Assembly: GCF_030540775.2 (NCBI RefSeq)
Contig: NZ_CP141266.1
Coordinates: forward strand, 399,501 to 463,500
Direction: 5' to 3'
Length of the DNA stretch: 64,000 bases
Source of the DNA: Flavivirga abyssicola
Lineage (GTDB): Bacteria; Bacteroidota; Bacteroidia; Flavobacteriales; Flavobacteriaceae
Part shown: piece after piece, positions 33,029-63,013 of the stretch
Layout of the letters: each line of letters begins with the position of its first letter
How positions within the stretch are numbered: the first letter of the stretch is position 1
Notes under the pieces: model-generated
The model's database searches: none
Told to the model about the DNA's origin: nothing
Seen by the model: the letters and a program-made list of their open reading frames with translations, nothing else
Program-made: the position numbers and the translations under genes

Positions 33029-33066
33029 TGATTTTTTCCTCACAAATTTTGTAGGCATGGGTAAAT
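33029..33066 (-). promoter_or_regulatory. Putative operator, copy 4 (GH110)
   Basis: Read on the minus strand it begins ATTTACCCATGCCTACA, keeping ATTTAC-N7-TACA. It ends 26 bp before the GH110 ATG. The other four copies are at 41725, 45242, 59839 and 62976. It is the most divergent copy in the downstream half. Confidence 0.55.
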
Positions 33067-33619
33067 TTGATGTACTTAACAGTAAAATAATTGTATTTCA
33101 GCACGAATTTAAGCCTGGTGACTTGCATAACCAGCGAAGTTTACAAATAATGGAGTTGTTTAGATTACGTTACTATTGGAAGGTATAAAAATAATATTAA
33201 AACAATGATTTTCAATTGTTTGTCATTTTCAACGGAATAAAGGATGAGAGAATAGAAATCTCATAAGGATAGGATTCTTTTCCTTCCTTCTGACAGCTAC
33301 AGTGTCCCTACATCTTTAAAAAAGATTCATTATTTACTTTTCTTTGCCCGTCCAAAGAAAAGTAACAAAAGAAAAGACGCCCCTTCGATAGGAATTTCTT
33401 CTCTTGCTCACACTCGAGAAGAACCAAGCACAAAACTTCGACGTCGCGCCGATGCGCCATCCAACGCTATGCTCCTGGGTTTCGAAGCTTTTGTCCTTTA
33501 TTCTTACGAAGGGTCGGAGCTTGCCTAACGGTCATTGCTTAACGAGCACCTTTAATCCCTTTTTAAATCTTATAATCCCCTGTTTAGGAGTCAATTGATT
33601 TATCAAGTACGTTAAGTCT
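33067..33619. repeat. Intergenic interspersed-repeat relic with a perfect hairpin
   Basis: The gap between GH110 and the next GH2 holds no credible gene. At 33334-33365 there is a perfect 13-bp inverted repeat (TTACTTTTCTTTG, 6-base loop, its complement). The following 230 bases are clearly richer in GC than the rest of the locus, for example GACGTCGCGCCGATGCGCC around 33440. This combination resembles interspersed non-coding repeats I have seen in Bacteroidota genomes. It looks like an inserted element or its remains, not native spacer. Confidence 0.55.
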
Positions 33620-35971
33620 CTAATTATTTAAAGTGAATTTACCTGTTAGCCCGTTTTTAGAGTTTGCCTCTACAACTATTGCTCCTTTTTTAGTACCCAC
33701 TTTAATTAATGCAGTCGCTACACCAGCTTCTGTAGTTATTTTTTCAACATTCAACACCTCAATATCTCCATTAATAGCTAAATTGATGTCTTCTGAAAAA
33801 TCTGGATTTATAGTATCATTATGGTCTACAGCAGCAATGTATAGGAAAATCACATCATTTACTCCGAACTCTAAATCCTTACCACTTTTATCTAGCCATA
33901 TTTTTAACTTTGTAGGTTTTTCGGGTGTTTTTATTATATCCTCAGATACTTTCTTGCCATTCACAAATCCCACAGCTTTTAATGTACCCAATTTAAAATA
34001 TGGTAATTTGAATGTAAACGGTGGATGCCTCAATTCTGAAGATATCTTATTTTTATCTGGTTTCTGACTACCTACTAGTTCATCATTTAAATAGAGTTTT
34101 ACTTCCTCAGAATTACTATACACTTTAATATCCAATGGCGATTTTTTGTTCCAGTAACTTGCAATTTTTAGAATATTGCCTTCATCTCTATCTTTTTGAC
34201 TTTGATAAAAATAATATGCGAATTTTGGCAATCTAAAAATATCCATAAGGCCTGAACGTTCAATATCATGGTGATAGCCTCGATTGTAATCATACATCAC
34301 CCAATAACTATCAGAATATGCTTTTGTTGTGAGGTTATCGTTGTGAGCTTCTTGAACATTTACTGCCTGTCTTAACATACGTTCTTCACCAAAACCTCTC
34401 GCCTGACGACTACTAAACTCATCACGCAAATCATTAGGTAACTGATCTTGATTCAATCCAGCATTTTTGGAATAGTATTCCCAATCACCATACTCTGAAA
34501 CTGAATATGGTTTATCTTTTAATTCATGCGGATGTAAAATTCTATGTTGACGTGCCTGAAGATAGATATCATACACATCGTCCATCCATCCACAAGAATA
34601 AACATGTTCTCCTGGGTATTCAGCATGAACGATTCTATCCAATTCCTCCATAAAAGGAACTGGCATTTTAGTTTCATTTAATGACACTTCCCAAGCTAAT
34701 ACACAAGGGTGGTTTCTATCTCTTCGTATTAACTCACTGGCAGAACGGTAACAGTAATTCTTGAAAGCCTCTGTATCTTTGTAAAATTGCCATCCCAAAA
34801 TCGCATCAATAACTACCAACCCTAGTTCGTCACAGGCATCCATAAATGCTGGTGAATGTGGGTAATGTGACAATCTGATATAATCAAAACCCCCATCCTT
34901 TATCTTTTTGGCATCTCGATACTGAGCGTTATCTGACAATGCGTATCCGATATAAGGGTATTCTTGATGACGATTTACACCGCGTAAAAACGTCTTTTTA
35001 CCATTGATATACAATTGATTATCCTTAAATGTAAATTCTCTTATTCCAAAACGTGTCGTTTCCTTATCTACTACATTTCCATTTACAAGCACTTTAGTTT
35101 CTAAATAATAAAGATTTGGTGATTTTGGTGACCATAAATTAGCGTTTTGAATCGTGAATTGCTTGTTTAAATTTATATCGTTTCCAGATTTAATTTCTGC
35201 AGTAGCTTTATTTTCGGCAATAAGCTGGTTATCAAAATAAATAGATTGAATTAGCTCTATTAATTTGTTTTTCTTGCTGTCATTTTCCAAATGTGTTTTT
35301 ATAACTACAACGGAAGATTCTTTTGACACCTTTGGCGTCGTTATAAAAATTCCTCCACTGGCTACTTTGTTAGCTAAATTTGCATTTGAAATATACACAT
35401 CGTCCTTAATAGTAAGCCAAGCGTTACGATAAAGCCCACCATACATATTGAAATCTAAAATCTTTAAAGGTTTAGGTCCTGTTACAGGGTTGTCTGTATT
35501 ATTCAGTCGAACTGAAATACTATTTTTTTCGCCTTTATTAAGGTACATAGTTGCATCAACCACTATGGGTAAGTAACCTCCTTGATGTACCGAAACTTTT
35601 TCACCGTTTATATAGATAATGGAGTGGTTCATAGCCGCTTCAAATTCGATAAACACCTTTTTACCTTCAGTAAAGCTAGGGACTTCAAAAGATTTGCGGT
35701 ACCAACACACTCCTTGCCATTGGTTATTTACAGTCAATGGTTCCACATTGGCAGTATGAGGTAAACTCACTGTTTCCCAACTAGAATCATCAAACGTCGC
35801 AGTTTCGAAACCTTCTTCTGAAAGGTTGGAAGCCTCCAATTTCTTAAACTTCCAATCTGAATTAAATTTTTCTCTAGAATTTTCTTTTACTTCCTCACAG
35901 GATTGCATGGTTATAAACAAAACACATGTAAAAATACTTACTATGGTGCGGTTCAATATTAAAAGCCTCAT
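33620..35971 (-). CDS. GH2 glycoside hydrolase (beta-galactosidase-like), 783-residue type
   Basis: 783 residues, lipoprotein signal (FITMQSCEEVKE, Cys25). Domains in order: jelly roll (about 35-195), Ig-like (200-315), TIM barrel (317-600), two C-terminal beta domains. Acid/base Glu433 lies in WEVSLNETK and nucleophile Glu493 in YSVSEYGDWEYY. FLRGVNRHQEYPYIGYAL is the barrel entry. It is shorter than LacZ and lacks its fifth domain; such forms act on beta-galactosides or beta-glucuronides, so substrate is not fixed. It is the last gene of a run from 41660 (sulfatase, relic, sulfatase, TlpA-like, sulfatase, GH2), starting 7 bp after the sulfatase stop. It probably trims desulfated carrageenan oligosaccharides. 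Confidence 0.88.
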   Translation of the reverse strand: MRLLILNRTIVSIFTCVLFITMQSCEEVKENSREKFNSDWKFKKLEASNLSEEGFETATFDDSSWETVSLPHTANVEPLTVNNQWQGVCWYRKSFEVPSFTEGKKVFIEFEAAMNHSIIYINGEKVSVHQGGYLPIVVDATMYLNKGEKNSISVRLNNTDNPVTGPKPLKILDFNMYGGLYRNAWLTIKDDVYISNANLANKVASGGIFITTPKVSKESSVVVIKTHLENDSKKNKLIELIQSIYFDNQLIAENKATAEIKSGNDINLNKQFTIQNANLWSPKSPNLYYLETKVLVNGNVVDKETTRFGIREFTFKDNQLYINGKKTFLRGVNRHQEYPYIGYALSDNAQYRDAKKIKDGGFDYIRLSHYPHSPAFMDACDELGLVVIDAILGWQFYKDTEAFKNYCYRSASELIRRDRNHPCVLAWEVSLNETKMPVPFMEELDRIVHAEYPGEHVYSCGWMDDVYDIYLQARQHRILHPHELKDKPYSVSEYGDWEYYSKNAGLNQDQLPNDLRDEFSSRQARGFGEERMLRQAVNVQEAHNDNLTTKAYSDSYWVMYDYNRGYHHDIERSGLMDIFRLPKFAYYFYQSQKDRDEGNILKIASYWNKKSPLDIKVYSNSEEVKLYLNDELVGSQKPDKNKISSELRHPPFTFKLPYFKLGTLKAVGFVNGKKVSEDIIKTPEKPTKLKIWLDKSGKDLEFGVNDVIFLYIAAVDHNDTINPDFSEDINLAINGDIEVLNVEKITTEAGVATALIKVGTKKGAIVVEANSKNGLTGKFTLNN

Positions 35972-35978
35972 TTTATGT

Positions 35979-37499: not shown

Positions 37500-37535
37500 A
37501 ATTTTTTAGATTTTTTTGTGATAAAATGATTTTAT

Positions 37536-38648: not shown

Positions 38649-38666
38649 AATTGTTTTTTAGTCTAA

Positions 38667-40088: not shown

Positions 40089-40138
40089 TTTAAAAACTTA
40101 ATTTTTTATGGTTAGTAATTGTTTTGAAACCTGCCTTT

Positions 40139-40252: not shown

Positions 40253-40268
40253 TTTAATAATTTTATGG

Positions 40269-41660
40269 TCAGTAGATAGGTACGGCTTCTTTTTCCCATT
40301 TAGCGATTTCTTTTTTTAATTGATTTTCAATTTCTAATCCTTTACCAATTAGGTTATTTTTTTCACTTATATCTTCAACTACATTAAATAGATGAAATTT
40401 TCCGCTGTGATATTTTATAAGTTTCCATTGACCCGAAATCACTGCAGCGTATTGATCTTCATAACTTCTAAAGAAATATAAATTACGCGGTGAAATATCT
40501 TCTCCTTTTAATATTGGCAGTAAACTTACGCCTTGAATATTCTCATTTTGATATTTTTCTCCCGAAGCTATTTCCATCAAAGTTGGAAAAACATCAATGG
40601 ACTGAACAGGAATGCTAGTTTCGGCATTTGCTTTAGTAATACCAGGATAATTGACAATAAATGGCACCCTTGCTCCGCCTTCACCTAAAGTATTCCCTCC
40701 TTTTTTTCCACCACTTAATGGTGTATTCTTATATGCTCCTCCTTGATCGGAGAGTACAATTACAATTGTATTATCTGCTATTCCTTTGTCCTTGATTGCT
40801 TTTCTTACCCTACCAATCGATTCATCCATAGCCTCAACCATAGCCGCATGATGCGCATATTTACCTTCCAAGCCTGCATCTTGGTATTTTTTGAGTAAAT
40901 CCTTTCTACCTATAGAGGGGCCGTGTACGGAATAGTACCAAAAAGATAGCATGAATGGTTGGGTCTTATCATAATTCTTAATGAAGTCAACGGCACCATC
41001 TGTAAGGACATCTGTTAAATAATCTCCTTCTTTATAATTTTTCTGAAATTCTTTTGGGTCTCCACTCTTAAAAAAGGGATAATAATAATTTTTGGGATGA
41101 CCATTATCAGTTGTTCCAAACGTTTTATCAAACCCTTGATGTTCTGGATAGTATTTATCATCTCCTAAATGCCATTTGCCAATAAACATATTGTAATATC
41201 CGTACTCCTTCAACTTTTCTGCATAAGTCACTTCTTCATGCGGAAGATAATTTCTAGAAGGTCTTTTCATAGGATCTTTTGGCCAAATATTGTATTCAGA
41301 ATTTATAAAATGTTTTTCTTCTGGGATATGCCTTGACATTTCTAACCTCACAGATTCTTTACCTGTGAGTAAACTTGCTCTACTCGGACTACAAGTTGGT
41401 GTTGGAATATAGGCTCGTTGAAAATCTAGACTTTCTTTTTTGAATTGATTCAAATTTGGAGTTTGAAACGTGGTATTTCTATAACCGACATCAGACCACC
41501 CCCAATCATCTATAAACAACAACACTATATTAGGTTTTGGGGCTAAAGCAGTTTGTTTAACTGAAGTATTTTCGGTTGTGTATTCTCCTTTATTTTTACA
41601 TGAGAATACAAGTATGCTACACAAGATAGCTAAGGTAATTTTAAGATGAATTAATTTCAT
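40269..41660 (-). CDS. S1 sulfatase with CSPSR motif, 463 residues
   Basis: Lipoprotein signal (CSILVFSCKN, Cys21). The motif CSPSRASLLTGKESVRLEM has Cys90; FIDDWGWSDVGYR is the metal site. VLSDQGGAYKNTPLSGGKKG is the distal site. The subfamily is not clear to me; WGWSDVGYR with SVRLEMSRH resembles marine sulfatases of groups such as S1_14 or S1_30. It is the first gene of a run that continues to GH2 at 33620. The 346-bp upstream region carries the regulatory motif 65 bp before the ATG, so it is probably co-induced with both iota-carrageenases. Confidence 0.87.
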   Translation of the reverse strand: MKLIHLKITLAILCSILVFSCKNKGEYTTENTSVKQTALAPKPNIVLLFIDDWGWSDVGYRNTTFQTPNLNQFKKESLDFQRAYIPTPTCSPSRASLLTGKESVRLEMSRHIPEEKHFINSEYNIWPKDPMKRPSRNYLPHEEVTYAEKLKEYGYYNMFIGKWHLGDDKYYPEHQGFDKTFGTTDNGHPKNYYYPFFKSGDPKEFQKNYKEGDYLTDVLTDGAVDFIKNYDKTQPFMLSFWYYSVHGPSIGRKDLLKKYQDAGLEGKYAHHAAMVEAMDESIGRVRKAIKDKGIADNTIVIVLSDQGGAYKNTPLSGGKKGGNTLGEGGARVPFIVNYPGITKANAETSIPVQSIDVFPTLMEIASGEKYQNENIQGVSLLPILKGEDISPRNLYFFRSYEDQYAAVISGQWKLIKYHSGKFHLFNVVEDISEKNNLIGKGLEIENQLKKEIAKWEKEAVPIY

Positions 41661-42006
41661 TTGTTACTGTATTGATTAAGTATACCCTATTTGAAGTAAA
41701 TATGTATTTAAATTATAATAAAGCTGTTTCTCTAAGTTTAGAAAATGTAGTTAAGGGTAAATTAATTGCTACATTTCATCCAACTTATTTTGTAAAAATA
41801 GTACGTTTAAAACAAAATTACTCCTGTTGATTAATTATTGTACACTAAAACTCCAAACTTACCCCTTGGCTTGTACTACTTTACCTTTCCTTGGCAACAC
41901 TTCTCGGCAATAATTAATTTTCCCCTATAACTTCTCCATCATTAATATCATCTCCATCAAAGAATGTCGACTAGCTTTTTTATAATGTCTTTTTTTAATT
42001 CTGTGC
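41661..42006. other. Intergenic region with one operator copy
   Basis: 346 bases between two minus-strand sulfatase genes. It holds the putative operator at 41725-41762 and a longer inverted repeat, AAATGTAG at 41743-41750 paired with CTACATTT at 41769-41776. The part from about 41850 to 42000 is unusually rich in C and T on the plus strand. I see no gene and no clear terminator there. Confidence 0.5.
41725..41762 (-). promoter_or_regulatory. Putative operator, copy 1 (sulfatase operon 41660)
   Basis: Minus-strand reading starts ATTTACCCTTAACTACATTT. It matches copies 2 and 3 without gaps over 38 bp and keeps ATTTAC-N7-TACA. It ends 65 bp upstream of the sulfatase ATG. A second half-site makes an 8-bp inverted repeat, AAATGTAG/CTACATTT, over 41743-41776. 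Confidence 0.65.
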
Positions 42007-43485: not shown

Positions 43486-43541
43486 TTATTTCAATTTTTG
43501 TGTAATGGCTAATAAGAAACATAGGGATTTTTCTCGTTTCA

Positions 43542-43720: not shown

Positions 43721-43776
43721 GTATATCAATTAATTATTCAAACTCTATTTCTTTAAAATGGTGCTTCATAAGTCAT

Positions 43777-45207
43777 TTAATTACAGCTTCCATCCGAAGG
43801 TACTGTAACTTGAGGACAACCACCTATAGCATTTGTTGGAAAGATAAAAAAGTCTTCTTGTTCAAAATCTGTATTCTTTTTTCTTATATCCCCAACAACC
43901 ACTTCATAGCAACCATTATCTGGACCGGTACATCCTCCCGCTGCAGCTGCATTATCTCTTATCGCTCCAATGGAATGACCGGGTGTACTTGATTCATCAG
44001 GGTTTTTACATCTTAATATTAGCTCTCTTCTATCGTCGCAATCAAAATATTTAAAGTCTTTCCCTTTTACTTGCGCTCCTTCACCGCCAGTTACAGTAAT
44101 ATCCCCAATATATGATCTACTATCAAAAGTACCCTTGTTTTCAATTAAGCCAGGTTTATTACCTATAAAACCAGCTGCTATTTGAACTGCATGGGTTGAA
44201 TTAATCGATACTACTCTTTCAATATCTACACGTCCTTGATCTACACGATGTGGTGACATATTAAAGGCTGCGTCTCCATTTCGAGATGTAATATCTCTTC
44301 CCACTACATCATCTACACTAATTTCATTTACTTGATTAGTAGCTGCTGCACCAGTTTCTACCCTTAAAGTAACACCTCCTTCTCCATCAAGGTTTTTGTA
44401 CAATACCGTTTTTCCCGACTGCATTTGCACGACTCCATAACCCACGTGCATTCCTGTCATAACAATATCTTTAACAACACCTTGTCTTGATATCTCATCT
44501 ACATTTTCACTTGATGGTAAGTTGAGCACAATATTTGAAAATTTTGAATACGAATCAGTTAAACTCATGCCTGAAAACTTAAAATTTTTGACATAACCAT
44601 ACTCAACAAATCGTACACCGCCGTAATCTCCCTCAGGAATATTTGCTTTAAACCAGGTACTAGGGTCCATGTTATCTTCATCTGAATTTGTAATAGCTAC
44701 ATTTTCAACATAAAAATCCTCTCCTACTAAAAACATACGTAAATTTTTACCCGAAGGCCATCCAACCAAATCTGGTTGTATAGTTACGTCTGTATCTATT
44801 TTTAAATGAATATTAGACCTTAGTACTACTTCAGTGAAACAATAGGTTCCTGCTGTAATTCTAATGATGCCTCCTCCAGAATTTGACACATCTAATATTT
44901 GCTGACTTAATAAATCGCTGTCTTGTGGACTACAGTTACCATTAAGATTTGCAATTACTTCTGTTGAAGGAATTTTATTTTCATAGAATCTATCTTCATT
45001 ATCTGTTAATCTATCAGTAGTAGTTTCTCCAGAAAGAAATAAATCGTCTGTATTGTTGTTTTCTTCCTCCTCATTCTCCTCAGTAAGATCTTCTTGTTGA
45101 ACATCATCACCACTTGGATTAGAGGAACAAGCAAAAAATACCATTGAAAAAATAGCAATTAACCATATTCTAAAAAAATTAAAACTTCGTCTTTTCATAT
45201 GCTTCAT
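43777..45207 (-). CDS. cgiA: GH82 iota-carrageenase, copy 1 (lipoprotein)
   Basis: 476 residues. Lipoprotein signal MVFFACSSN (Cys27), then an acidic linker (residues 37-55) and a right-handed beta-helix from about 85. Candidate GH82 site residues: Gln261 (VGYGVVQMQS), Glu284 (GGVTLRVETG) and His320 (NMSPHR). Their spacing, 23 and 36 residues, equals that of Gln222, Glu245 and His281 in Alteromonas fortis CgiA as I recall them. Asp247 of that enzyme would fall on Gly286, so the base is not conserved. The enzyme would cut beta-1,4 bonds of iota-carrageenan. Cysteines near the end could form disulfides. An operator copy lies 35 bp upstream. Closest relative in the window: the partial gene at 63059. 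Confidence 0.8.
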   Translation of the reverse strand: MKHMKRRSFNFFRIWLIAIFSMVFFACSSNPSGDDVQQEDLTEENEEEENNNTDDLFLSGETTTDRLTDNEDRFYENKIPSTEVIANLNGNCSPQDSDLLSQQILDVSNSGGGIIRITAGTYCFTEVVLRSNIHLKIDTDVTIQPDLVGWPSGKNLRMFLVGEDFYVENVAITNSDEDNMDPSTWFKANIPEGDYGGVRFVEYGYVKNFKFSGMSLTDSYSKFSNIVLNLPSSENVDEISRQGVVKDIVMTGMHVGYGVVQMQSGKTVLYKNLDGEGGVTLRVETGAAATNQVNEISVDDVVGRDITSRNGDAAFNMSPHRVDQGRVDIERVVSINSTHAVQIAAGFIGNKPGLIENKGTFDSRSYIGDITVTGGEGAQVKGKDFKYFDCDDRRELILRCKNPDESSTPGHSIGAIRDNAAAAGGCTGPDNGCYEVVVGDIRKKNTDFEQEDFFIFPTNAIGGCPQVTVPSDGSCN

Positions 45208-45241
45208 TTTACGTAAAGATCAATAAATAGAAAGGAGTAAA

Positions 45242-45279
45242 TGTTTTTTTGAATAATAAAAATGTAGCTAAGGGTAAAT
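45242..45279 (-). promoter_or_regulatory. Putative operator, copy 3 (GH82)
   Basis: Minus-strand reading starts ATTTACCCTTAGCTACATTT, identical to copy 1 over these 20 bases except for one. It ends 35 bp before the GH82 ATG. It keeps ATTTAC-N7-TACA. Confidence 0.65.
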
Positions 45280-46913: not shown

Positions 46914-46921
46914 GAGTCTGG

Positions 46922-49900: not shown

Positions 49901-51115
49901 ATCTGAAGTTATTATTGAAAGGTTTCCTAGCGGAGATACAAAAGCATAATCGTTACCCGGTGGGTGCTGTGGTTCTACCCCTATAACAAAAGACGCTTTA
50001 TCATCTTTTACGTCCCACCTTGTAAGACCAGGATAATGCCCTATGTATAAATTATCATCTTGTAGGTACATGTATTCTGGTTTAAAAATCTTATCAGTGC
50101 TTCCTAGTTCAATTTCTTTAATATCCATCGGATCGGAAAAATCGTAAGTAAGAATTTTAGAAATCTTATCTACATTCTTCTCTCCTGAAAAAGCACCATT
50201 GTAAAAACGATCGCCATATAAAATCCCTTGATATCCTATTTTAATAGCTCTATGGTTTATTAGATTAGGATGCTTTGGGTCACTTACATCCATTAAAACC
50301 ATGTGCCCTTTTGCAGTTGCTACTGCTGCTGGCGAAAGCACCAACATATCTCCAATAGCATGAACAGAGCGTATGGTTTGATTGTATAATTCGTTTTTTC
50401 GCAGATGCGATAATAATTTAGGCTCTTTAAAATTTTCTGTACTTATAATAAACAACCCGTTAGCCCCTGTTGGCGCGTAGACATATTTCCCTCCTACCCA
50501 TGCAGGTGCAAAGGTAAACCCATCATATACTGTTGATTTTTCAACTTCAGGAAAATGATAACGGCAAACTACTTTTGGTAAAGTTTTTGGATCATCATCG
50601 TATAATGGACCAATATCAAGAATTAAAAAGCCGTTGTGGTTTTTACCTCGATCTGAAAACAACATCATATCCTTGTAATAATATAATCCATGATGCTCTC
50701 CCAAATCACCTAAATAATGTTCTTTTCCCTCTACATGATATAATTCCGGATAATCTCTAGAATCAAATACCGTTTTTGGATTTCTTGGGTCATCAATATT
50801 ATAAGCGGCAAAGGCCCCATCTCCTATACCTCCTCCAAAATCAAAACTCATTGGCGCAACCATAAGCCCCTTATGGTAACCTACTGCACTTAAAGCCTTA
50901 CCACAGTCTATCCATGATAGAATTTGACCTAAATCTTCTTTGGGGTATTTCTTGTTAAAAGGCGCATGTACTTTGTTTGGTTTTTTATTGGCAACACTTC
51001 TAACCGAGGTATAATTTCCGTTTATAGGTATTAAAACAAAGGCCGGTAATGCTAGAAGCCCAAATACTAAAAGGGTTTTTATCATTAGTTTAATCAAGAT
51101 ATTTTTAGTATTCAT
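46922..51115 (-). CDS. Giant multidomain di-heme c-type protein with propeller, PKD and cadherin-like domains
   Basis: 1397 residues, probably exported (hydrophobic start MIKTLLVFGLLALPAFVLIP). Order: LVIVD-like repeats (about 70-420), Big_5-type Ig-like (about 425-535), PKD domain with SYSWDFGDGSHS (about 560-640), YVTN/NHL-like propeller (about 645-960), di-heme cytochrome region, cadherin-like tail. Heme sites are CASCH (1001-1005) and CYTCH (1130-1134). The region between them, with LHWSANFDEVQDFD and LYDVLRKAH, resembles MauG/bacterial cytochrome c peroxidase proteins. Such proteins carry out peroxide or oxidative chemistry. No carrageenan locus member of this size is known to me. It lies 6 bp after the fusion esterase. 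Substrate and electron partner are unknown; see findings. Confidence 0.8.
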   Translation of the reverse strand: MNTKNILIKLMIKTLLVFGLLALPAFVLIPINGNYTSVRSVANKKPNKVHAPFNKKYPKEDLGQILSWIDCGKALSAVGYHKGLMVAPMSFDFGGGIGDGAFAAYNIDDPRNPKTVFDSRDYPELYHVEGKEHYLGDLGEHHGLYYYKDMMLFSDRGKNHNGFLILDIGPLYDDDPKTLPKVVCRYHFPEVEKSTVYDGFTFAPAWVGGKYVYAPTGANGLFIISTENFKEPKLLSHLRKNELYNQTIRSVHAIGDMLVLSPAAVATAKGHMVLMDVSDPKHPNLINHRAIKIGYQGILYGDRFYNGAFSGEKNVDKISKILTYDFSDPMDIKEIELGSTDKIFKPEYMYLQDDNLYIGHYPGLTRWDVKDDKASFVIGVEPQHPPGNDYAFVSPLGNLSIITSDHEVESKLNLGVHQIAPDLKDPEVRSVFPKNGKKNVSLLGKIGISFSDFIDNECLENGAVYVKEKGTDKIVDCGFSHGMGIVHAIPYKPLKKNTSYEVYVTTNLMDLVGNPFKADTLVTQFSTGSEIVDYSSQVVVDKPKEVGDKITLKAVISNKGKSKISYSWDFGDGSHSTPFSSSTSIKKTFSKPGNYSVTLTTKKEGSDKLIKSSAVQVVYAPLENNLPISSSTVILDENDNRFYVVNPDNNSFTAFNTKTGKSIYEKPTGKEPTSIIKEDNELWISCAKSDAIFVHDVESGKHLKTISLGYGSAPYGLTLNKESKFAYVALSATNTLQEIDTDSYKMLRNIQLEGPLRHVAFIPKKNRVVANQLIASNQEGARVQWVDVKNWEVSYNKVLKPTMVNDGLSNGRGYPNYLGAMAVNPQQTDLWIPAKKDNLFRGLKRDGKPLVFDHTVRSTVINIDLDKEQEVDENRLDLDNSDFASAATYNAFGNILYVTTHGSQTITSVDAFNPNNQSIFNSYGDGARALVANNDGTRLYVHNQLSRNIAVFESQPNGELKYLTKWRTVTNELLDADILDGKRIFNRTNISNLSREGYMSCASCHIDGSHDGRIWDLSNLGEGLRNTIDLRGKEGMKHGTLHWSANFDEVQDFDDQIRNLNEGTGFLYDVLRKAHKPFFPSKSGLHVGLDNLAKYVTSLSDYPKSPYKNDDGTMTKAAKKGRSHFINLECYTCHSGSTFTDSGFGVMHDVGTITKNSGNRLGKELNGIDTPTLISIWQSAPYLHDGSAKTLEEVFNTGQGELVKVHRRANTLSKKEKMQLIAFLKELDNEEGITPDELGSKNIKPEFNLSEYVIDYDYKYEDIEYHIGKVSATDKDQEQELVYRIIPSVHAQMFTIDSLTGEMHYKFKELYLKNISNMVLTTKKTFNFQVLVEDNGDIVKRDTTNITFNVTFPNIPIRTQELNELKRLHLKIDGGKKLSATEQKRIEELDSQLKNYN

Positions 51116-51121
51116 AACTTC

Positions 51122-53152
51122 TTAGTTCGATAAATGCTTTTTAAAAAATTCTATTACGTAATTAAGTTCTTTCTGCTCTTTAAAAAAGGCATGTTTTGCG
51201 CCTTCTATGATAACCAAATCGCTTTCTATACCATAATCTTTTAGTTTTTCATGTAAAATGACACTTTGGTTTAAAGGCACAAGCTTATCTTGGTCTCCAT
51301 GCATCAATAAAAATGGAGGATCATCTTTTGACACATATTGTATTGGACTAGACTGTTTTGCTAATAAGGGTTTCTCTTCATTTGTACCCCCTAAAAGATT
51401 TGTAATATTAGGCACATGTGTAGTGCCATTTTGTACATTTAGATCTTCTACTATTTTAATCATATCAGAAGGTCCAAACCAATCACAAACGGCATTAACA
51501 TGGCTAGATACATCGGTCACTCCAACACTACCTTCTAGTTCATTAGTACTACCTGTAAGACCAGCAAGGGCAACCAAATGCCCCCCAGCAGAAGATCCCC
51601 AAAGCCCAAAATTATTTGGATCTATATGGTAATCTGATGCATACTTTCTCAAGTATCTTATTGCAGCCTTAGTATCATGTATTTGAGCAGGAAAGATATC
51701 ATGGCGACTCAATCGATAATTTATTGACGCCATTGCAAAACCATGTTCTAACAATATGGAATGTTTTCCAAAATCTTCTTTAGACAATTTGTTCCACCCT
51801 CCACCATGCACCCAAATCACTAACGGCATGGGTTTATCAGAGGTATAGTTTTTGGGAAAATATAGGTCTAGTGTTTGGGTTCTATGACCGTTTTCTACAT
51901 AGGGAATATTTTTATAAATTTTTATATGCTTTGGTATTAAAGCCTGTTCTGCATTCATCCTATCAACAAACTTATGATATACTCTAAACTCTTTTTTGTT
52001 AAGTGCTCCATCTATGTTTTTATCAACATGATCAACATAGTCCAGATTAAATTCAGCTAGTTCTTTCCCTTGTAATTTTTCATCGCTATTCAAATCAAAA
52101 TCAACAAATTTTGTTTTTGCTTTTTTTATAGATGATTTAATAACTGGTGTTAAAATGATATTTTTATACTTTACAGCAGTATGATCGCCTTGAAAATATA
52201 TGGGACCTGATTTGGTGTCGTCTGCACTTAATGCTCCCTTAGTTGCGCCTTCTATTGGCTGATTATCGATAACTTTCTTTCCGTTAAGTATGACCGTTAT
52301 GTGCTGATTTACTAAAGTGATATCATATTGCTGCCATTTTCCACCCTCTTTCCCTGCATTTTCTGATGCTCGAACACGTCCGAAAACAGAACCTATCCCT
52401 TGAATCCCCTGCATACGACTATCTCTATCTACAACCTGTACTTCATATCTTCCTTTAAGGTAAATGCCACTGTTACCTCCTTTTGGAACATTAACCTCAA
52501 GTTTTAAATTGAAATCTTCAAACTCTTGCTTGGTTCTTAAGTTTCCATACTTAGAAAAAGGTTCAAAACTACGCTTTGGGGTTTTATTAACCATGATTCC
52601 ATTTTCTACAATCCAGCCATTCTTTTGGTTGGGATTAGTAAGCTCCCAGCCTTCTAAATTTTTGCCATTAAAAAGTGACGGTGGTTTATCGTATTGAATG
52701 GAGTCTAAATTTGGCTTAAAGGGCAATGGTGGTAATCGTTTTCCTGTAAATGTTTCTTTTTCTTTTGTACCATCTTCTAATTGATAATTTGCAATAAGCT
52801 GCATCTCATCACCATAAATAACTGCTCGGTTTTGAATAACTACTTTTGATCCTGTTGGTGAACCTCCAACATATTTAGGTTTTCCAACCGAACTTTTGCG
52901 TTTGAAATAGAGTGTATCGCCAACTATTTTAATGTCAAAAATTTTGTTATGCTGTCCAACAGTCCATATTTCCCCTTTTACCTCAGTACTGTCTCCCTTT
53001 ACAGAAAACCACGCAGGATGTCCATTAGGTAAATCTAGAGCCCAGTTACTTTTAGAATTAGTAGACAGTTTCTTTTCTGTATGGCAAGAAAAAAGCAGCA
53101 AAACACCTGTGAATAGGCGCAAGCAATAAGCATAAAACTTATTGAACTTCAT
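51122..53152 (-). CDS. Fusion: DUF1080 (3-keto-disaccharide hydrolase-like) + EF-hands + alpha/beta-hydrolase esterase
   Basis: 676 residues, lipoprotein signal (VLLLFSCHTE, Cys23). Residues about 155-340 are a DUF1080 concanavalin-like domain (FNGKNLEGWELTNPNQKNGW, then YLKGRYEVQVVDR). Residues about 345-395 carry two EF-hand-like loops (DFDLNSDEKLQGKEL and DHVDKNIDGALNKKEF). From about 410 to the end is an alpha/beta hydrolase of the BD-FAE type: WVHGGGWNKL forms the oxyanion hole, GSSAGG (519-524) holds Ser521, and DQDKLVPLNQ and GAKHAF hold the Asp and His. The esterase could remove acyl groups from algal polysaccharide. DUF1080 members are reported to act on 3-keto sugars, which suits an oxidative route. 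Role is inference. Confidence 0.8.
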   Translation of the reverse strand: MKFNKFYAYCLRLFTGVLLLFSCHTEKKLSTNSKSNWALDLPNGHPAWFSVKGDSTEVKGEIWTVGQHNKIFDIKIVGDTLYFKRKSSVGKPKYVGGSPTGSKVVIQNRAVIYGDEMQLIANYQLEDGTKEKETFTGKRLPPLPFKPNLDSIQYDKPPSLFNGKNLEGWELTNPNQKNGWIVENGIMVNKTPKRSFEPFSKYGNLRTKQEFEDFNLKLEVNVPKGGNSGIYLKGRYEVQVVDRDSRMQGIQGIGSVFGRVRASENAGKEGGKWQQYDITLVNQHITVILNGKKVIDNQPIEGATKGALSADDTKSGPIYFQGDHTAVKYKNIILTPVIKSSIKKAKTKFVDFDLNSDEKLQGKELAEFNLDYVDHVDKNIDGALNKKEFRVYHKFVDRMNAEQALIPKHIKIYKNIPYVENGHRTQTLDLYFPKNYTSDKPMPLVIWVHGGGWNKLSKEDFGKHSILLEHGFAMASINYRLSRHDIFPAQIHDTKAAIRYLRKYASDYHIDPNNFGLWGSSAGGHLVALAGLTGSTNELEGSVGVTDVSSHVNAVCDWFGPSDMIKIVEDLNVQNGTTHVPNITNLLGGTNEEKPLLAKQSSPIQYVSKDDPPFLLMHGDQDKLVPLNQSVILHEKLKDYGIESDLVIIEGAKHAFFKEQKELNYVIEFFKKHLSN

Positions 53153-53292
53153 ATAAATAAAATTTTAAATTAATGGCTAAACAATCCTCTGGAGTAAAAG
53201 AACTAAAATTAAAAGTCTTTTTTGAGACCTTCCGTAAATTATATGTATCACTCAGTACATAAGCTATAATGCCAGTAATTTAAAATAATGAC

Positions 53293-55779: not shown

Positions 55780-55795
55780 ATATATTGTTTAATTT

Positions 55796-56728: not shown

Positions 56729-56835
56729 TACTTTTTAATATTTTTATTGCTATTCCCTTTTTCAAAAACTAGCTTAATATCCTTTTTCTTGGCATCCTCA
56801 TTAGCTTCTCTCACTAGTTGTAAAAATATCTTCAT
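56728..56835 (-). CDS. Small ORF, 35 residues, translationally coupled to the esterase
   Basis: ATG at 56835, TAA overlapping the next ATG as TAATG. The product begins MKIFLQLVREANEDAKKKD and ends NIKK; it is lysine-rich and helical. I recognise no family. It may be the tail of a deleted larger enzyme, as its sequence looks like a C-terminal helix, or a leader peptide. The coupled stop-start favours real translation. No signal peptide or membrane segment is seen. The distance from the GH150-like stop is 117 bp. Confidence 0.4.
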   Translation of the reverse strand: MKIFLQLVREANEDAKKKDIKLVFEKGNSNKNIKK

Positions 56836-56952
56836 TTGTTTACTAAATATTAATTATCTCCAAAGTCTGAGAACCAAATGAAAATATATCTAAAAAAACT
56901 GTTGTGTATTTCATTCAAAATGACACGAATTATTTCCTTTAATTTACAAAGT

Positions 56953-59787
56953 TTACAGTTTCTCGTTTAATTCAATATCAATAAATCTAAAACCACCTAA
57001 AGGGATTTCAATATCTAATGTGGAATCAGAATTCAATTTGAACTCCTCTCCACTTAAAATATCTTTAATTTTTTTAACTTCAATATTGTTGATTTTAACC
57101 TTTGCAGTTTCTTTATTTGGATTGATATAACCATTTTCAACAATGGTTAAACGTAATTGTTTTGCTCCTACCTGAGCAACTACCCATCCTACATTTCCTG
57201 ATACATTTACCGGAATTAGAGACGAACTTTTCTTTATATCTTCTTCAATTACTTTGTAATACTCATCAGGGGCATAAGTTTCTTTTCCATCTGCTGAATA
57301 ATAATTCTTACCATCAGAATAATACTCCTTCATGATATTTTTATACCAAGGATGAATATTTTCTTTAAGAAGTTTACGGTACACTTTTTTTGCTGCAAAG
57401 ACACCTTTTTGAGGTGGTGTAATTAACACCATACCATTATTATACTTAGGAATAAAATTTAAACGTCTCTCATTGGCACCAGCAGCATACTTCGAAAAAT
57501 CCCATTCAGTTAATGGAGCTCCAGGCCATGTGCCATTTAATCTGCTAAATACATAGGGGTCATTTTCTGTTTTTTCTTTATCAAAAAATGTTAACCATTT
57601 TACGTTACTAGCTCTACTTAGATATTCATGTTCTGGATTAGCAATACTTAAATGTACCGGCGAAAAGCTTAAAATATCTGAACGCTTTGGAACGTAAATA
57701 GCACCCTCTGCAATCAAGTCCCATAACAAACTCATATATTCTTGATCTACAGGAAAATTATCTATAAACTGAGCACCGCTAGAAATGGTATACACCATAG
57801 TTCTTAAAAAATGATTCGGTAAAGTTTGATTTGAGTGTTGACGCAAACGATCAAAACTGGCATTATCCCTTGCACAACGCGCACCCCAACTATCTACAGC
57901 ACCTGCAGCCCAAATCCCTAATCTGGAAGTAAAACTTAATTCCATCGATTTATCTGTTGTTTCTTCCATGGCTGGCACAAAAACGTTAGCGTATTTACCA
58001 GAAACTAAAGGTTCCCATTTTTTCATATAAACGCTAGATTGCCAGAACAAATGTTTATTTCTCAAATACATATTGGCATTTCTGGTTTTGGCATAGTCTG
58101 CTAATGGCAATATCAAATCATTCATTACAAACTTAAATTCATCAGAATGGTCTTCAACTTCAGGATAAATAATTACGGTTTTATTTCCATTGGCAATATC
58201 AAACCCTTTTTTTGTTGTTTCCACTTGATACATATAAGGGTCATTACCATGTCCAGCCCAATAAGAAATTCCTTTCCCTTTAGATTGATCGTGCCTTTTT
58301 TTAATTTTTTCTAAAACTTCTTCTTGAGTAAGTTTATATTTCATTCTGCGGTCACGTTTGTTTTTATAAATTTCACTTGACATAGCAGAACGGTCCCATT
58401 TTTCTTTATCAAAATTCCCTCCATTCAAGAAAACTGGATTATCATGGTTAGCTTCAATGCGTTCAATACTTTTTCTAGCCTCAGGTTTCTTTCTGTTCTC
58501 AGACATAAAATAAACAGTAGCAGATTTCTTTTGATACTTGGGCTTTTTAAACTTTATCAAGTTGTTTTTTATACCGCTAGTGTTAGCTAGAATATCTTGA
58601 ATTTTTCCAGGAGGATTTAATTCTCTAAATTCTTTTTTCCATTTTTTACTATCAAAATCAATAATATGAATAGCACTACCTCCACTTTGAGCACTTGCCA
58701 AAATTACTTTATTAGAATTTGGATCTTTAAACATGTCGTTAAAAGAAAATCGTGTTGGTAGCACTTCGGCATCGGCCTCTTCATCTCCAAAATCAGAAAT
58801 AACAAGGTTACTTCCTTGTAAAACTATATGCGCTTTTTTTCCTTTGTTACTAACAACTTCTGGCTGAATTACACGATACATCCCTCGATTAAGCACCTTT
58901 CTTTCTTTAATCTTATTCAAATCGAAAAGAGACTGCTTATTTGTCTTCGTATCAATAATTGTAAAATAGTTTCCTTTTGCTTTTGCACCAACTCGCCCTA
59001 ATAATATCTCGCTATTGCCATCATTATTGACATCTACTACCTTTAGGTCTCCAAATGGCCCTCTTTTTTTCAATTTAATAGTTTGATAAGGTTTAGCTTC
59101 TAAAGGTTTGAAAAAGTAAACAGACCCTGGACCACTCATGCTATTTTGCACACCATGTACAACTAGAATTTCTTCTCCATTAGCTAATTTGGCTGGTCTT
59201 AAAAAGTTAGTAACATGTAGTCCTTTAGGAGGGTGTACTTTATGTAATGCTTTACTAAAGGGTTTTTCAATTGAATACGTTTTAGACGCTACTTCGCTTA
59301 TTAGTTCTCCTTTCGGGGATAAATAATAATAGCTATTATCATAACCACCACAAACCGCATAAGATTTACCATCTTTTTGTATCACACATACCGAATACAT
59401 TGGTGCTTCATTTTGCTTGAATTCCCATAACAATTTGCCATTGCTATTTAAGCAGTATATTGAACCATCTGCATTCGCTGCAAAAATTTCATCTACTCCA
59501 TCCATATCAACATCTCCAGCCCAAATATCATGATTCATAAATCCTGATAGTTTGTTTTCCCAACGAATTTCACCATCATAACCTACTGCTAAAATGGTAC
59601 CTTCATAACTTGTACAAGCTACATAAGTCCCTTGTTTATCTACTGCTGTTCTAACTTTTGTAATGGTATACTTTGTATTAATACTTTTTACACCACTATC
59701 AAAACTATTTGAAATTGCAAATGAGCTATTATTTAGAAAAATAATTAGCAAACATATTTTTTGTAATATATTGATTTTTAAATCCAT
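56953..59787 (-). CDS. GH150-like lambda-carrageenase homologue 2
   Basis: 944 residues with a Sec signal (CLLIIFLNNSSFA). The propeller half (about 30-400) includes GDVDMDGVDEIFAANADG; the catalytic half includes WAGHGNDP (510-517), VPAMEETTDKSMELSFTSR, and WDFSKYAAGANERR. It resembles the 950-residue homologue along its full length, in the same order, and has the length of the founding lambda-carrageenase (about 942). It would cleave beta-1,4 bonds of lambda-carrageenan, releasing sulfated oligosaccharides. The upstream gap holds an operator copy 52 bp before the ATG, so this is the GH150-like gene most clearly tied to the regulon. It may lead a transcript with the small ORF, SASA esterase and GH2. 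Confidence 0.74.
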   Translation of the reverse strand: MDLKINILQKICLLIIFLNNSSFAISNSFDSGVKSINTKYTITKVRTAVDKQGTYVACTSYEGTILAVGYDGEIRWENKLSGFMNHDIWAGDVDMDGVDEIFAANADGSIYCLNSNGKLLWEFKQNEAPMYSVCVIQKDGKSYAVCGGYDNSYYYLSPKGELISEVASKTYSIEKPFSKALHKVHPPKGLHVTNFLRPAKLANGEEILVVHGVQNSMSGPGSVYFFKPLEAKPYQTIKLKKRGPFGDLKVVDVNNDGNSEILLGRVGAKAKGNYFTIIDTKTNKQSLFDLNKIKERKVLNRGMYRVIQPEVVSNKGKKAHIVLQGSNLVISDFGDEEADAEVLPTRFSFNDMFKDPNSNKVILASAQSGGSAIHIIDFDSKKWKKEFRELNPPGKIQDILANTSGIKNNLIKFKKPKYQKKSATVYFMSENRKKPEARKSIERIEANHDNPVFLNGGNFDKEKWDRSAMSSEIYKNKRDRRMKYKLTQEEVLEKIKKRHDQSKGKGISYWAGHGNDPYMYQVETTKKGFDIANGNKTVIIYPEVEDHSDEFKFVMNDLILPLADYAKTRNANMYLRNKHLFWQSSVYMKKWEPLVSGKYANVFVPAMEETTDKSMELSFTSRLGIWAAGAVDSWGARCARDNASFDRLRQHSNQTLPNHFLRTMVYTISSGAQFIDNFPVDQEYMSLLWDLIAEGAIYVPKRSDILSFSPVHLSIANPEHEYLSRASNVKWLTFFDKEKTENDPYVFSRLNGTWPGAPLTEWDFSKYAAGANERRLNFIPKYNNGMVLITPPQKGVFAAKKVYRKLLKENIHPWYKNIMKEYYSDGKNYYSADGKETYAPDEYYKVIEEDIKKSSSLIPVNVSGNVGWVVAQVGAKQLRLTIVENGYINPNKETAKVKINNIEVKKIKDILSGEEFKLNSDSTLDIEIPLGGFRFIDIELNEKL

Positions 59788-59838
59788 AAAAGGTTTTTAT
59801 TATTTTGTATGCAAATTATGCTACCTATTTAAATAAAG

Positions 59839-59876
59839 TGTTTTTCTAAGTTTAAATAGTGTATCTATTAGTAAAT
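59839..59876 (-). promoter_or_regulatory. Putative operator, copy 2 (GH150-like)
   Basis: Minus-strand reading starts ATTTACTAATAGATACA and ends AAACTTAGAAAAACA, which nearly equals the end of copy 1 (AAACTTAGAGAAACA). It keeps ATTTAC-N7-TACA and ends 52 bp before the ATG. Confidence 0.6.
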
Positions 59877-59887
59877 GAAATCAAAAA

Positions 59888-62542
59888 TTAATATGTTATG
59901 TCTATAAACCTTAGCGAACCAGCAGGAACTTTTATTTTTATATCTTCAGTATTTACACTGAAATTCTTATTGCTAAGTATATCTCTCACTGATTTTGGTT
60001 TTATATTTTGAAATGTAATTTTTGCTTCAGTCTTTTTAGGGTTAATATATCCAGGGTCAACCAATATTAGCCTACTATAATTTTTATCTAATTTTATTAA
60101 ACTCCAAGAAGCTCCTGAAACCAAAACCGGTAATTGTTTCTTTCCTTTTAAGACTTCTTTTTTGATTGTTTTACCAAATTTTGTTGCGGGTATCTTCGCC
60201 CCTTCTCTAAATCCAGTCTTACCATTTGACACAAAATATGGAATATTTTTATTTTCTAAGATCGATTTTAATTCAATTGGAGCTATAGGAACCATTCCAT
60301 GTGGCATTTCTGGCATATAATTTAACCATCTGTATTTAACACCTAAAGCAGCATTGGAAAAATCATGTTCTGGAATATTTGTACCTGCCCAATGCATTTG
60401 AGCTAGAGAAAATACTGCATTATCATCATCTTGTCTATATTGTTTTAAATTATGATGATTATCAACTGAATGAATCAGTTTTTCATCCACATCTTTTATT
60501 AAATGCCAAGAGCTAATGGATTGAATATTTTCTTTTTCAACTACAGGAAGCACACCTGATTTCATAAGTGCAAATAAGACATTAAGACCCGGAGATTCAA
60601 CGAATCCGCTTGTTGATACTATTCCATAACGTGCACCATAGGCTGCCATTATTACACCTTGTCTTAAATATGGGGATACTGAATTTTGCCCACCGGGTGA
60701 TAATGGCCGCCAGCTGGTTGGATTATCATCAATTAAGCGCATAGCAAAGTCGTTTACATACCCTCCTGAATACATACCTATACGCCCTGCTAAATTTAAA
60801 TCTTGAATTCTATTACTAGTGTCTTCAGAAGCTGGCACTAAAAAATCGTTGTATTTGCCTGAAAAAAACATGTCTTTCCATAATGGTAAATGCGATGTTG
60901 CTGCCCAAAACATATTTTTATACCTGAAGTATAATTTTGCTCGATTATGCTTTCGAATCGCTTTTGCTAATCTTGGAAGGTATTCTTTAATAAAATGAAT
61001 CACTCTTGGGTCTTCTACCTTATCCATTTCTGCATACACGAAGCCATAGCATGTATTTGGCGCAACCTCTAATATTTTTTCTAGGGTTTCAATTTGAATA
61101 TAAAATGGATCATTACCATGACCAGCCCAAAATGTAAAGGGTTGTTTTCTGGCTTCAAAATCTCTAGCCATTTGGATGATATCTTCACGGGAGTCTTGAT
61201 ACGCTCCTCGCTTGTCTTTTTTTAAGGCTATATTTCCTAAAACAGCTACCAAATGAGAGCGATCGGTACGCTCTTTTGGAGATTTTTGAATTACAAACTT
61301 TACATCTGTACCATTTAATGATTTTAGTTTTGGGTCGATTTTTTCCTTTGTTATCATTACCCATTCTTGTTCAGATGGCTCTTGATATTCTGGTAATTCA
61401 AAATTTAATATTTGCTGGTATAAAACGTCCAGGTTTTTTTCAACCTCAAGCATTCTACCTTGCTTTTTATGTGTTGTGAGCCACCATTTAGGCTGTTCTA
61501 AATCATAAAAGCATATGGTATTTCCACCATCTACAGAACCTGCTGCTACCAACTGATTTGATCTTGGTTCGAATGCAAAATCACTGAAAACATTTTTACC
61601 ATATTTAGAACCTGATGTTCCTATATGATTGCCCTTGGCATCTAAAACTATTAAAAGACCTCCATGCTGTAGTATAATTTCATTTCTAGTGGCTAAGAAA
61701 GCACCTTGAGTATGAGCATATCGTTGTACTTGCTTTTTATTCCCTAAGTACTCAGCCAAAACATCGAAATTACTATTTAGAGCAGTAAATAGAGGTTTGA
61801 ATTTGTCATCACCAAAAAATAGAATATCTGTCTTAGAATCATTATTTATATCTCTTACTGAAATATCAGTAACCATTGCTCTTCGCAAATTTTTAAGCCT
61901 TCTATCTGTATAATTAACACTTTTTATGACTGCTTTTGTTTCTACATCTAAAAACCCCATAAATTCCCAACGAAATTTATCATGTGCATAAGTCATTACA
62001 AAAAGGCTTTGTGTATTGGCATCAATAAAATTACCACCTTCAATCTTTCGAACTACACCTTCAATTGGTGTTTTTGAAACTAGCTTTCCATTGGCATCTA
62101 ATTCATATAATTGATAATCATTACCTCCTGCAAAAATTTGAACTTTACCATCATTCTTTATCACTGCTACTTCAGAAAATCGCACTTTATGTTTTGGTTG
62201 AAACTTCCATAATAACTTGCCTATACTATTATAACAAGAAATATATCCGTTAGCATGTGCTGTTATTAATTCATCATTACCATCACCATTAATATCTGAA
62301 GCTTCTATTTCAAATAATACCGCTGGTTCATCTGTTTTTTTGTGCCATAATTCCTTGCCTTCAATTGTGTGGCTTGATAAGCTACCATCTAACTCTCCCA
62401 AAAACAATATGCTTTCACCATTAACTTCAGCGATAACAGAATGTCTTATTGCATTTCCTTTTGTAGAAAAATTTTGAGCTAAACCTATTTGAACTAAAAA
62501 GGAGGTAAGTAATAATATTATAGTTTGTTTTATTTTATTCAT
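59888..62542 (-). CDS. GH150-like lambda-carrageenase homologue 3, shorter and divergent
   Basis: 884 residues, Sec signal (FLVQIGLAQ). The fold order is the same: propeller (SDINGDGNDELITAHANG) and a catalytic half with WAGHGNDP (472-479), VPASEDTSNRIQDLNLAGR and HDFSNAALGVKYRW. It is shorter because parts of the propeller and the linker are reduced. In the AGR-type block it keeps the first acidic residue (Glu) but has Asn where the others have Asp, and later IDDNPTSW replaces ARDN. This suggests different subsite preference, for example a less sulfated or hybrid chain. It is possibly the first gene of the cluster; no operator copy is found upstream, but a hairpin element is. Confidence 0.65.
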   Translation of the reverse strand: MNKIKQTIILLLTSFLVQIGLAQNFSTKGNAIRHSVIAEVNGESILFLGELDGSLSSHTIEGKELWHKKTDEPAVLFEIEASDINGDGNDELITAHANGYISCYNSIGKLLWKFQPKHKVRFSEVAVIKNDGKVQIFAGGNDYQLYELDANGKLVSKTPIEGVVRKIEGGNFIDANTQSLFVMTYAHDKFRWEFMGFLDVETKAVIKSVNYTDRRLKNLRRAMVTDISVRDINNDSKTDILFFGDDKFKPLFTALNSNFDVLAEYLGNKKQVQRYAHTQGAFLATRNEIILQHGGLLIVLDAKGNHIGTSGSKYGKNVFSDFAFEPRSNQLVAAGSVDGGNTICFYDLEQPKWWLTTHKKQGRMLEVEKNLDVLYQQILNFELPEYQEPSEQEWVMITKEKIDPKLKSLNGTDVKFVIQKSPKERTDRSHLVAVLGNIALKKDKRGAYQDSREDIIQMARDFEARKQPFTFWAGHGNDPFYIQIETLEKILEVAPNTCYGFVYAEMDKVEDPRVIHFIKEYLPRLAKAIRKHNRAKLYFRYKNMFWAATSHLPLWKDMFFSGKYNDFLVPASEDTSNRIQDLNLAGRIGMYSGGYVNDFAMRLIDDNPTSWRPLSPGGQNSVSPYLRQGVIMAAYGARYGIVSTSGFVESPGLNVLFALMKSGVLPVVEKENIQSISSWHLIKDVDEKLIHSVDNHHNLKQYRQDDDNAVFSLAQMHWAGTNIPEHDFSNAALGVKYRWLNYMPEMPHGMVPIAPIELKSILENKNIPYFVSNGKTGFREGAKIPATKFGKTIKKEVLKGKKQLPVLVSGASWSLIKLDKNYSRLILVDPGYINPKKTEAKITFQNIKPKSVRDILSNKNFSVNTEDIKIKVPAGSLRFIDITY

Positions 62543-62583
62543 AATTATTAGAATTTCGCTTTTTAGACTCTAAAAAAGAAAAA

Positions 62584-62739
62584 AGGCTTAATCTAAAAAA
62601 ATAAAGAATTTCGGTTTTTGACCTTTTGGGTCAAAAACCGAAATTCTGTTATTTAGATTCCCGTTTACACGAGAATAACAACTTCAACGGAAACCCCGAG
62701 GCAGAACCTCGAGGAATTATTTTCGATTAAATTAAGCCT
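62584..62739. repeat. Palindromic REP/MITE-like element, copy 2
   Basis: Outer terminal repeats are AGGCTTAAT at 62584-62592 and ATTAAGCCT at 62731-62739. Inside is a perfect 19-bp hairpin (62605-62623 and 62629-62647, 5-base loop). Then come TTATTTAGATTCCCGTTT, an inner stem CGAGG-CAGAA-CCTCG (62697-62711), and the tail GAGGAATT then TTTTCGATTAAATTA. It shares order and tail with the copy at 43542-43720. As it lies between divergent genes it is not simply a terminator. Confidence 0.65.
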
Positions 62740-62975
62740 ACACTTTAATTTCTATTATTTCTAGAATTAAAACTTACAAATCATTAAAACTAAATCTTTA
62801 ATTTTTCTATTCATTTTTAAACAGATTGTAGTATTAATTTAATTTCATCTCTCCAAAATGAGGACAATCTTCCTTAAATCACGAGTCAACTTCAACGATG
62901 TTGCGACTTCCGAGCATTAGAACGTTATTCACTGATTATCTGATAGTTAGTTAAAATATTTTTTAGATACATTTT

Positions 62976-63013
62976 ATTTACTCTAGAATACATTTAACAA
63001 TTTATATATCTCC
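62976..63013 (+). promoter_or_regulatory. Putative operator, copy 5 (GH82 copy 2)
   Basis: Plus-strand reading starts ATTTACTCTAGAATACATTT. It keeps ATTTAC-N7-TACATTT and ends 46 bp before the ATG at 63059. It is the only copy in plus orientation, in keeping with the orientation of its gene. Confidence 0.6.

Follow-up and report, generated by a model that had tools for sequence, protein, structure and literature searches.

What are the short sequences that recur upstream of carrageenan genes in Flavivirga abyssicola, and which protein reads them? We analyzed a 64,000-nucleotide stretch of its genome (NCBI RefSeq assembly GCF_030540775.2, contig NZ_CP141266.1, positions 399,501 to 463,500; hereafter the window, whose first letter is position 1), in which a first-pass annotation had described five sites with the pattern ATTTAC-N7-TACA as marking a five-gene carrageenan regulon. 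We found that this pattern captures only half of the element. The full element is a 38-bp tandem direct repeat that relatives keep at constant spacing from a -7-like promoter box, and sequence comparison predicts that a sugar-sensing switch protein very probably binds there. The element is likely the operator of a hybrid two-component system (HTCS) protein encoded 26 kb to the right of the window (window coordinates 89904-94037, genome C1:489404-493537), which would activate the carrageenan genes through it.

The five reported sites are present and lie upstream of genes. ATTTAC-N7-TACA has exactly five matches in the window, at 33050-33066(-), 41746-41762(-), 45263-45279(-), 59860-59876(-) and 62976-62992(+), whereas 100 shuffles yield 0.31 on average and at most 3, and all five are intergenic and oriented toward the next gene. 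The distances from the 38-bp intervals of the first-pass annotation to the start codon, given earlier as 26, 65, 35, 52 and 46 bp, were recomputed as 22, 64, 34, 51 and 45 bp, the first (GH110) being 25 rather than 22 bp if the ATG at 33003 is used, so that the new figures are then the earlier ones minus one. Across the genome the bare pattern occurs near the background rate (37 matches in 4.68 Mb vs 30 with the reversed pattern), so only its cluster in the window is unusual (Poisson P of about 1e-4 to 2e-4 for at least five matches in 64 kb), and we rejected it as a genome-wide marker of the regulon.

To define the full element, a matrix was built from the five window sites, which yielded further candidate sites in the flanking DNA. 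A search with the half-copies placed the best second copy at -21 (27/50 letters, the highest value among non-zero offsets between -45 and +45). From relatives (those named include Lutibacter, Maribacter, Cellulophaga, Mariniflexile and Flavivirga) we collected the DNA around HTCS and lambda-carrageenase genes and performed motif discovery using an unseeded mixture model on 260 upstream regions from 21 stretches of 18 genomes, excluding the window's genome. Duplicate assemblies were judged by identical places (e.g. G334/G399 and G072/G411), and one of each pair was used in the discovery, held-out test, alignment and model. The best motif of width 38, TACt...Aaa.ACA....AT..Att...Aaa.ACA, had about 73 sites and a log-likelihood of 681.6, whereas no unrelated motif exceeded 288.5. 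Its layout is that of a direct repeat in tandem, 17 + 4 + 17 bp with a period of exactly 21 bp, in which the half-sites TTTACt-N3-ArnTACA and atnTAyt-N3-ArnTACA are separated by 4 bp. Among 20 named loci of relatives, the looser half-site NTTTAC-N7-TACA was intergenic and facing a gene in 11 (the reversed control being one base stricter), and was not found facing a gene in L044, L048, L051, L052, L053, L054, L056, L057 and L058.

We refined a 44-column model from a seed typed from the unseeded result and scanned 164 kb of the locus, where its top matches were centred at window coordinates 33066, 41741, 88747, 45258 and 59855; 20 Markov shuffles peaked at 9.2-16.5. When each genome was left out in turn, 65 of the 72 matches scoring at least 17 fell in intergenic DNA ahead of a gene on their own strand and 7 did not, intergenic sequence making up 9% of the 800 kb scanned. 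Operator scores also settle the 38-bp intervals drawn by the first-pass annotation: 41725-41762, 45242-45279 and 59839-59876 are exact, and the other two are off by one 21-bp unit, having caught the second half-site and been extended in the wrong direction. With the operator-only model, 33029-33066 scores 4.2 and 33050-33087 scores 32.6, while 62976-63013 scores -2.7 and 62955-62992 scores 16.9.

We then examined the DNA downstream of 82 aligned operators (74 rows from relatives and 8 from the window's genome), in columns that fall outside the 44-column model. All 82 have T at +25, and 99% have it at +26; T at +21 and A at +22 are each found in 62%, and A or G occupies +28 in 92%. In the relatives alone, TT occurs at +25/26 in 73 of 74 rows, compared with 58 at the overlapping offset 26/27 and 0-30 at other offsets. 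These conserved columns resemble the TAnnTTTG -7 box located at -12 to -5 in Flavobacterium psychrophilum (PMC9723704); as TAnnTTTR-like columns they stand at constant spacing from the operator, while single boxes are degenerate. On the TAnnTTTG scale the last base of the operator would lie at about -33, counted from the expected start of transcription, and the median distance from operator to start codon is 58.5 bp.

A 72-column model of operator plus -7 box, trained on relatives only, gave nine matches of 20.3-39.5 in the 164-kb locus, all intergenic and upstream, corresponding to eight operators, one of them with two registers; no match in these 164 kb scored between 10 and 20.3. The ceilings were 15.1 in 30 shuffles and 14.0 in 320 kb of control stretches from the same genome, so that a similar rate elsewhere, the outcome that the first-pass annotation had named as damaging to its proposal, was not seen in these samples; stretch L201 scored 12.6. 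A coding-sequence match at about window -14993, which had ranked next after the five top matches of the 44-column model (21.3 with the operator alone), scored under 10 when the -7 box was included and was discarded as false. The predicted regulon does concern carrageenan, as had been claimed, and is larger than five genes, with eight operators in the locus and further ones at a distance.

The highest-scoring operator, 33050-33087(-) (39.5 with the -7 box, which is at 33022-33029(-), 20 bp after it), precedes the GH110 alpha-galactosidase gene 31090-33006(-), whose identity is borne out by Pfam GLAA-B domains and the GH110 structures 9beh and 7jw4. An overlapping register at 33071-33108(-) (24.4 with the -7 box) adds a third, weaker half-site; 33050-33108 thus holds three consecutive half-sites, with a -7-like box in phase with each overlapping register. 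The operators at 41725-41762(-) (32.7 with its box at 41697-41704(-)) and 45242-45279(-) (31.9 with its box at 45214-45221(-)) precede, respectively, a sulfatase gene (40269-41660(-)) and copy 1 of the iota-carrageenase (GH82; 43777-45207(-), matching 1h80 with E 2.9e-27 and no Pfam family). The operator at 53223-53260(-) (25.5 with its box at 53195-53202(-)) had been overlooked; it stands before a hydrolase/esterase gene with 3-keto-disaccharide hydrolase / BD-FAE esterase domains (51122-53152(-)) and possibly serves the genes after it as well. At 59839-59876(-) (23.6 with the -7 box) the operator precedes 56953-59787(-), called GH150-like before and found to be a full lambda-carrageenase family protein (CGLA_M 642.7 bits); its box, TAATTTGC at 59811-59818(-), is degenerate and one base out of register. 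The weakest of the set, 62955-62992(+) (20.3 with its box at 63013-63020(+)), precedes GH82 copy 2 (63059-64000(+), running beyond the window end; 3lmw, E 2.7e-28 for the in-window part), so that both iota-carrageenase genes carry the element, as had been stated. The remaining two lie outside the window: 81788-81825 precedes an EF-hand gene, and 88731-88768 precedes a small gene that weakly matches a secretion tail; further downstream, 431 bp away, are two lambda-carrageenase genes. In agreement with the first-pass annotation, the model has no match of 10 or more before susC, GH127 or the large GH2.

The candidate regulator combines Reg_prop, Y_Y_Y, HisKA, HATPase_c, Response_reg and HTH_18 domains in one protein, and its nearest solved chains include 4a2l and 12aw. 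Its DNA-reading helices, which we take to be LYLNRTHFYQKVK and GFKSRTHF, are largely constant among the motif-linked HTCSs and differ in the other HTCSs of the window's genome. Residues 1192-1195 read SHIP, an instance of the (S/C)HIP contact motif conserved in typical HTCS receivers (PMC11253607). Orthologs in relatives share 47-67% identity over the full length, and they are encoded on the lambda-carrageenase contig, within about 54 kb, in nine genomes (G072, G168, G323, G084, G051, G002, G383, G237 and G334).

HTCS orthologs accompany the motif in relatives better than two other regulators of the locus do, a TPR-TM-HTH protein and an AraC-type protein. The pattern for operator and -7 box (up to 2 mismatches) has 102 matches in the 15 genomes with an HTCS ortholog (at least 47% identity; reversed pattern, 16) and 12 in the 13 genomes without one (reversed pattern, 4), a difference with a Mann-Whitney P of 3e-6. 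Two genomes outside the first training set, G001 and G019, have 4 and 7 matches; G000, with 8, was also outside it, yet its rows are among the 82 behind the pattern. G001 was chosen as a control, found to hold two HTCS orthologs (52% and 50%) and moved to the HTCS group; 3 of its 4 matches are on the contig of one of them, within 24 kb. Another relative from the genus Flavivirga, G019, encodes an HTCS ortholog (53-54%) that has an operator (27.3) in its vicinity (L141-L142), and the lambda-carrageenase search of relatives found no such gene there, so the switch may serve another galactan in that genome.

Several observations weigh against assigning the element to the HTCS. The pattern behind the genome-level counts was designed partly from the same genomes, and among the controls without an HTCS ortholog G017 has 3 matches and G014, G005 and G004 have 2 each. 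In G036, G388 and G180 the HTCS and the lambda-carrageenase do not share a contig. Stretch G237a has no held-out match of at least 17 and its sites look somewhat different, and inspection of the DNA-binding domain revealed no residue change that could defensibly account for this. An ortholog of the AraC-type protein lies on the HTCS contig, 54-71 kb away, in G002, G403 and G323, so the two regulators are not always separable, and there are three matches of at least 17 around nine AraC orthologs. Finally, an association of this kind leaves room for another regulator that travels with these loci to read the site.

The AraC-type protein in question (C1:394421-395278, about 4-5 kb left of the window) has a cupin and AraC-type domains and is of the same family as CgrA, which is required for normal growth of Zobellia on carrageenans (PMC5698469); AraC-family proteins also bind direct repeats. 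We nevertheless consider it very unlikely to own the operator and rejected it on the distribution of its orthologs and on neighbourhood scans. The ortholog is absent from G168, G051, G180, G334, G388, G405, G408, G400 and G019 (33-41% among the matches listed), in which HTCS and motif persist; where it is present (58-68%), it does not share a contig with the HTCS in G397, G398, G401, G072, G084 and G036, and lies more than 100 kb from the HTCS in G237 and G383. The three matches mentioned above are the only ones in the 341 kb around the nine AraC orthologs, and two of them are in G237, where another HTCS homolog (43%) adjoins the AraC gene. By the 72-column model, neither the surroundings of the AraC gene nor the left portion of the roughly 140-kb locus contain an operator. 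The TPR-TM-HTH protein (13651-15147), which the first-pass annotation had put forward as binder beside a regulator outside the window, belongs to this locus as well and contains a weak GerE/LuxR-type helix-turn-helix (HTH), and its ortholog is about 11 kb (G237) and about 26 kb (G403) from an HTCS ortholog. It has only weak or partial matches (29-40%) in G019, G036, G168, G323, G334, G383, G388 and G400, eight genomes that hold the HTCS ortholog and the motif (seven by the genome-level count, G400 by L042), and in G051 its match spans 34 residues only. Its orthologs are often on the contig of the AraC regulator, and in G072, G084, G397, G398 and G401 they are on that contig and not on the HTCS contig. 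On this distribution the protein was rejected as an extremely unlikely binder, and the suggestion of a regulator outside the window fits the HTCS.

The site could also be bound by some other regulator, such as an unlinked AraC-type protein or an HTCS paralog, with the HTCS a mere neighbour. The window's genome has 37 HTCS and 27 AraC homolog matches to choose from, and some motif matches in G072, G051 and G180 are on contigs without the HTCS ortholog. This is improbable in view of the genome-level association of the motif with the HTCS ortholog, of the differing DNA-reading helices, and of the neighbourhoods of five other HTCS genes in the same genome, where the 320 kb scanned contained no operator. 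Chance matches in AT-rich intergenic DNA would account for the near-background rate of the bare pattern (37 vs 30), and yet the full element with its -7 box is clearly set apart from the shuffles and the controls; the results across genomes and the fixed spacing refute this origin, whose probability we regard as negligible. The HTCS at 89904-94037 thus remains the likely reader.

To find members of the regulon outside the locus, we searched the whole genome with a pattern for operator and -7 box (up to two mismatches), the model itself being run on selected stretches. The pattern matched eight places, six in the locus (two of which are overlapping registers of one operator) and two elsewhere. 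Matches with three mismatches (29 vs 6 and 24 vs 10 for reversed patterns) were treated as background, save those named here. One distal operator, C1:4237461-4237498 (31.7), ends 65 bp before a lone lambda-carrageenase gene (C1:4237564-4240707, L220:7565-10708; 1047 aa, CGLA_M 461.6 bits). A small secretion-tail gene lies beside this gene, and both are distant from the carrageenan locus. The second distal operator, C1:3856465-3856502, is found 218 bp upstream of a galactonate dehydratase gene (NCBIfam PRK14017, 631.6 bits, cut-off 311) and stands back to back with C1:3856316-3856353 (three mismatches, 21.9 by the model), 64 bp before a short-chain dehydrogenase gene that is followed by a SMP-30-type lactonase gene. 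In L246:14673-17879 (C1:3854672-3857878) the dehydratase gene therefore faces the dehydrogenase/lactonase pair across two back-to-back operators. The three predicted enzymes together suggest oxidative catabolism of galactose. In relatives, we hand-picked 20 further stretches from the better genome-level matches, which are thus not a random sample, and scanned the first genes behind the operators in 19 (the first gene of L252 was left out): 6 had GH110 domains, 6 were sulfatases, 2 SusC, 1 a lambda-carrageenase and 1 a sodium-solute symporter, 2 were without a family and 1 had a secretion tail only.

The window is part of a polysaccharide locus of about 140 kb (genome C1:359501-503500, window -39999 to 104000) that contains numerous sulfatases, two or more susCD pairs and two AraC-domain regulators. 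With 140 bp between the GH110 gene and the start of susC, both on one strand, susC may belong to the GH110 operon. A divergent lambda-carrageenase-like protein (59888-62542; CGLA_M 203.5 bits) has no operator of its own, and a perfect 19-bp inverted repeat with a 5-bp loop, seen by eye at 62605-62647, is located directly upstream of it; relatives also have such divergent copies, one of which (L079) has a half-motif 58 bp upstream. The locus further encodes, at 46922-51115, a 1397-aa protein with Ig-like, PKD, cadherin and cytochrome-peroxidase-like domains.

In E. coli, the AraC half-sites I1-I2 are two 17-bp half-sites in direct orientation with a 21-bp period, beside the promoter; the geometry is like that of our element, and the sequence, regulator class, sigma factor and signal differ. 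The predicted HTCS operators of Bacteroides thetaiotaomicron are described as direct repeats of two conserved sites on average 21 bp apart (PMC3878776), so the element belongs to a kind already known. The first-pass annotation was therefore right about an operator-like element, and its "undescribed regulator" is of a described kind with a described kind of operator, this particular one apparently being new. As in those Bacteroides regulons, the repeat stands upstream of polysaccharide-use genes, with local and some distal targets, and the regulator joins sensor, kinase, receiver and AraC-type domain; the organisms and the polysaccharide are different, the motifs there differ from one HTCS to the next, and the likeness is to their description rather than to their logos. 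The passages on these operators in PMC3878776 do not mention a fixed -7 spacing, which together with the depth of conservation and the distal members is special to the present case. The carrageenan-induced regulon of CgrA (ZGAL_3159) in Zobellia galactanivorans likewise covers genes in a locus and at a distance, a susCD pair being among the distal genes there, yet CgrA is a stand-alone AraC protein concerned with kappa-family carrageenans, unlike the HTCS and lambda/iota enzymes here, and the passages on CgrA in PMC5698469 describe no operator. In Pseudoalteromonas, GH150, GH110, GH2 and sulfatases break lambda-carrageenan down to galactose (PMC12549532), and the same families stand behind or beside the operators described here; that cascade is from another phylum, and the word "regulator" is absent from the main text of its description. 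A search of the open-access literature, mostly by title and abstract, yielded no HTCS operator for carrageenan.

From these comparisons we infer that the HTCS binds the element, that it activates transcription instead of repressing it, and which sugar is the inducer. Oligosaccharides derived from carrageenan, most likely from the lambda type, would switch the HTCS kinase on; two DNA-binding domains would then occupy the two tandem half-sites, which are 21 bp or two helical turns apart on the same face of the DNA, and the operator, ending at about -33 and adjoining RNA polymerase, would activate transcription from the -7 box at fixed spacing. We favour, with somewhat better than even confidence, a scheme in which one HTCS, via this strictly spaced operator and -7 box kept family-wide, runs the lambda-/iota-carrageenan programme as a split regulon of eight locus operators, an isolated lambda-carrageenase and a back-to-back galactose-oxidation operon pair, while the AraC side of the locus is run separately.

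Assignments of polysaccharide loci in marine Bacteroidota mostly rely on gene content, and a conserved operator allows members of a regulon to be read from sequence; here it picked out far-off genes without recourse to their annotation, namely the lone lambda-carrageenase and the galactonate-dehydratase cassette. The analysis names a likely regulator for the use of lambda-carrageenan and suggests that two regulators share one giant locus. The constant spacing between operator and promoter is a testable rule for activation by HTCSs and, if the scheme is true, this fixed geometry would make the HTCS regulons of marine Bacteroidota directly readable from sequence.

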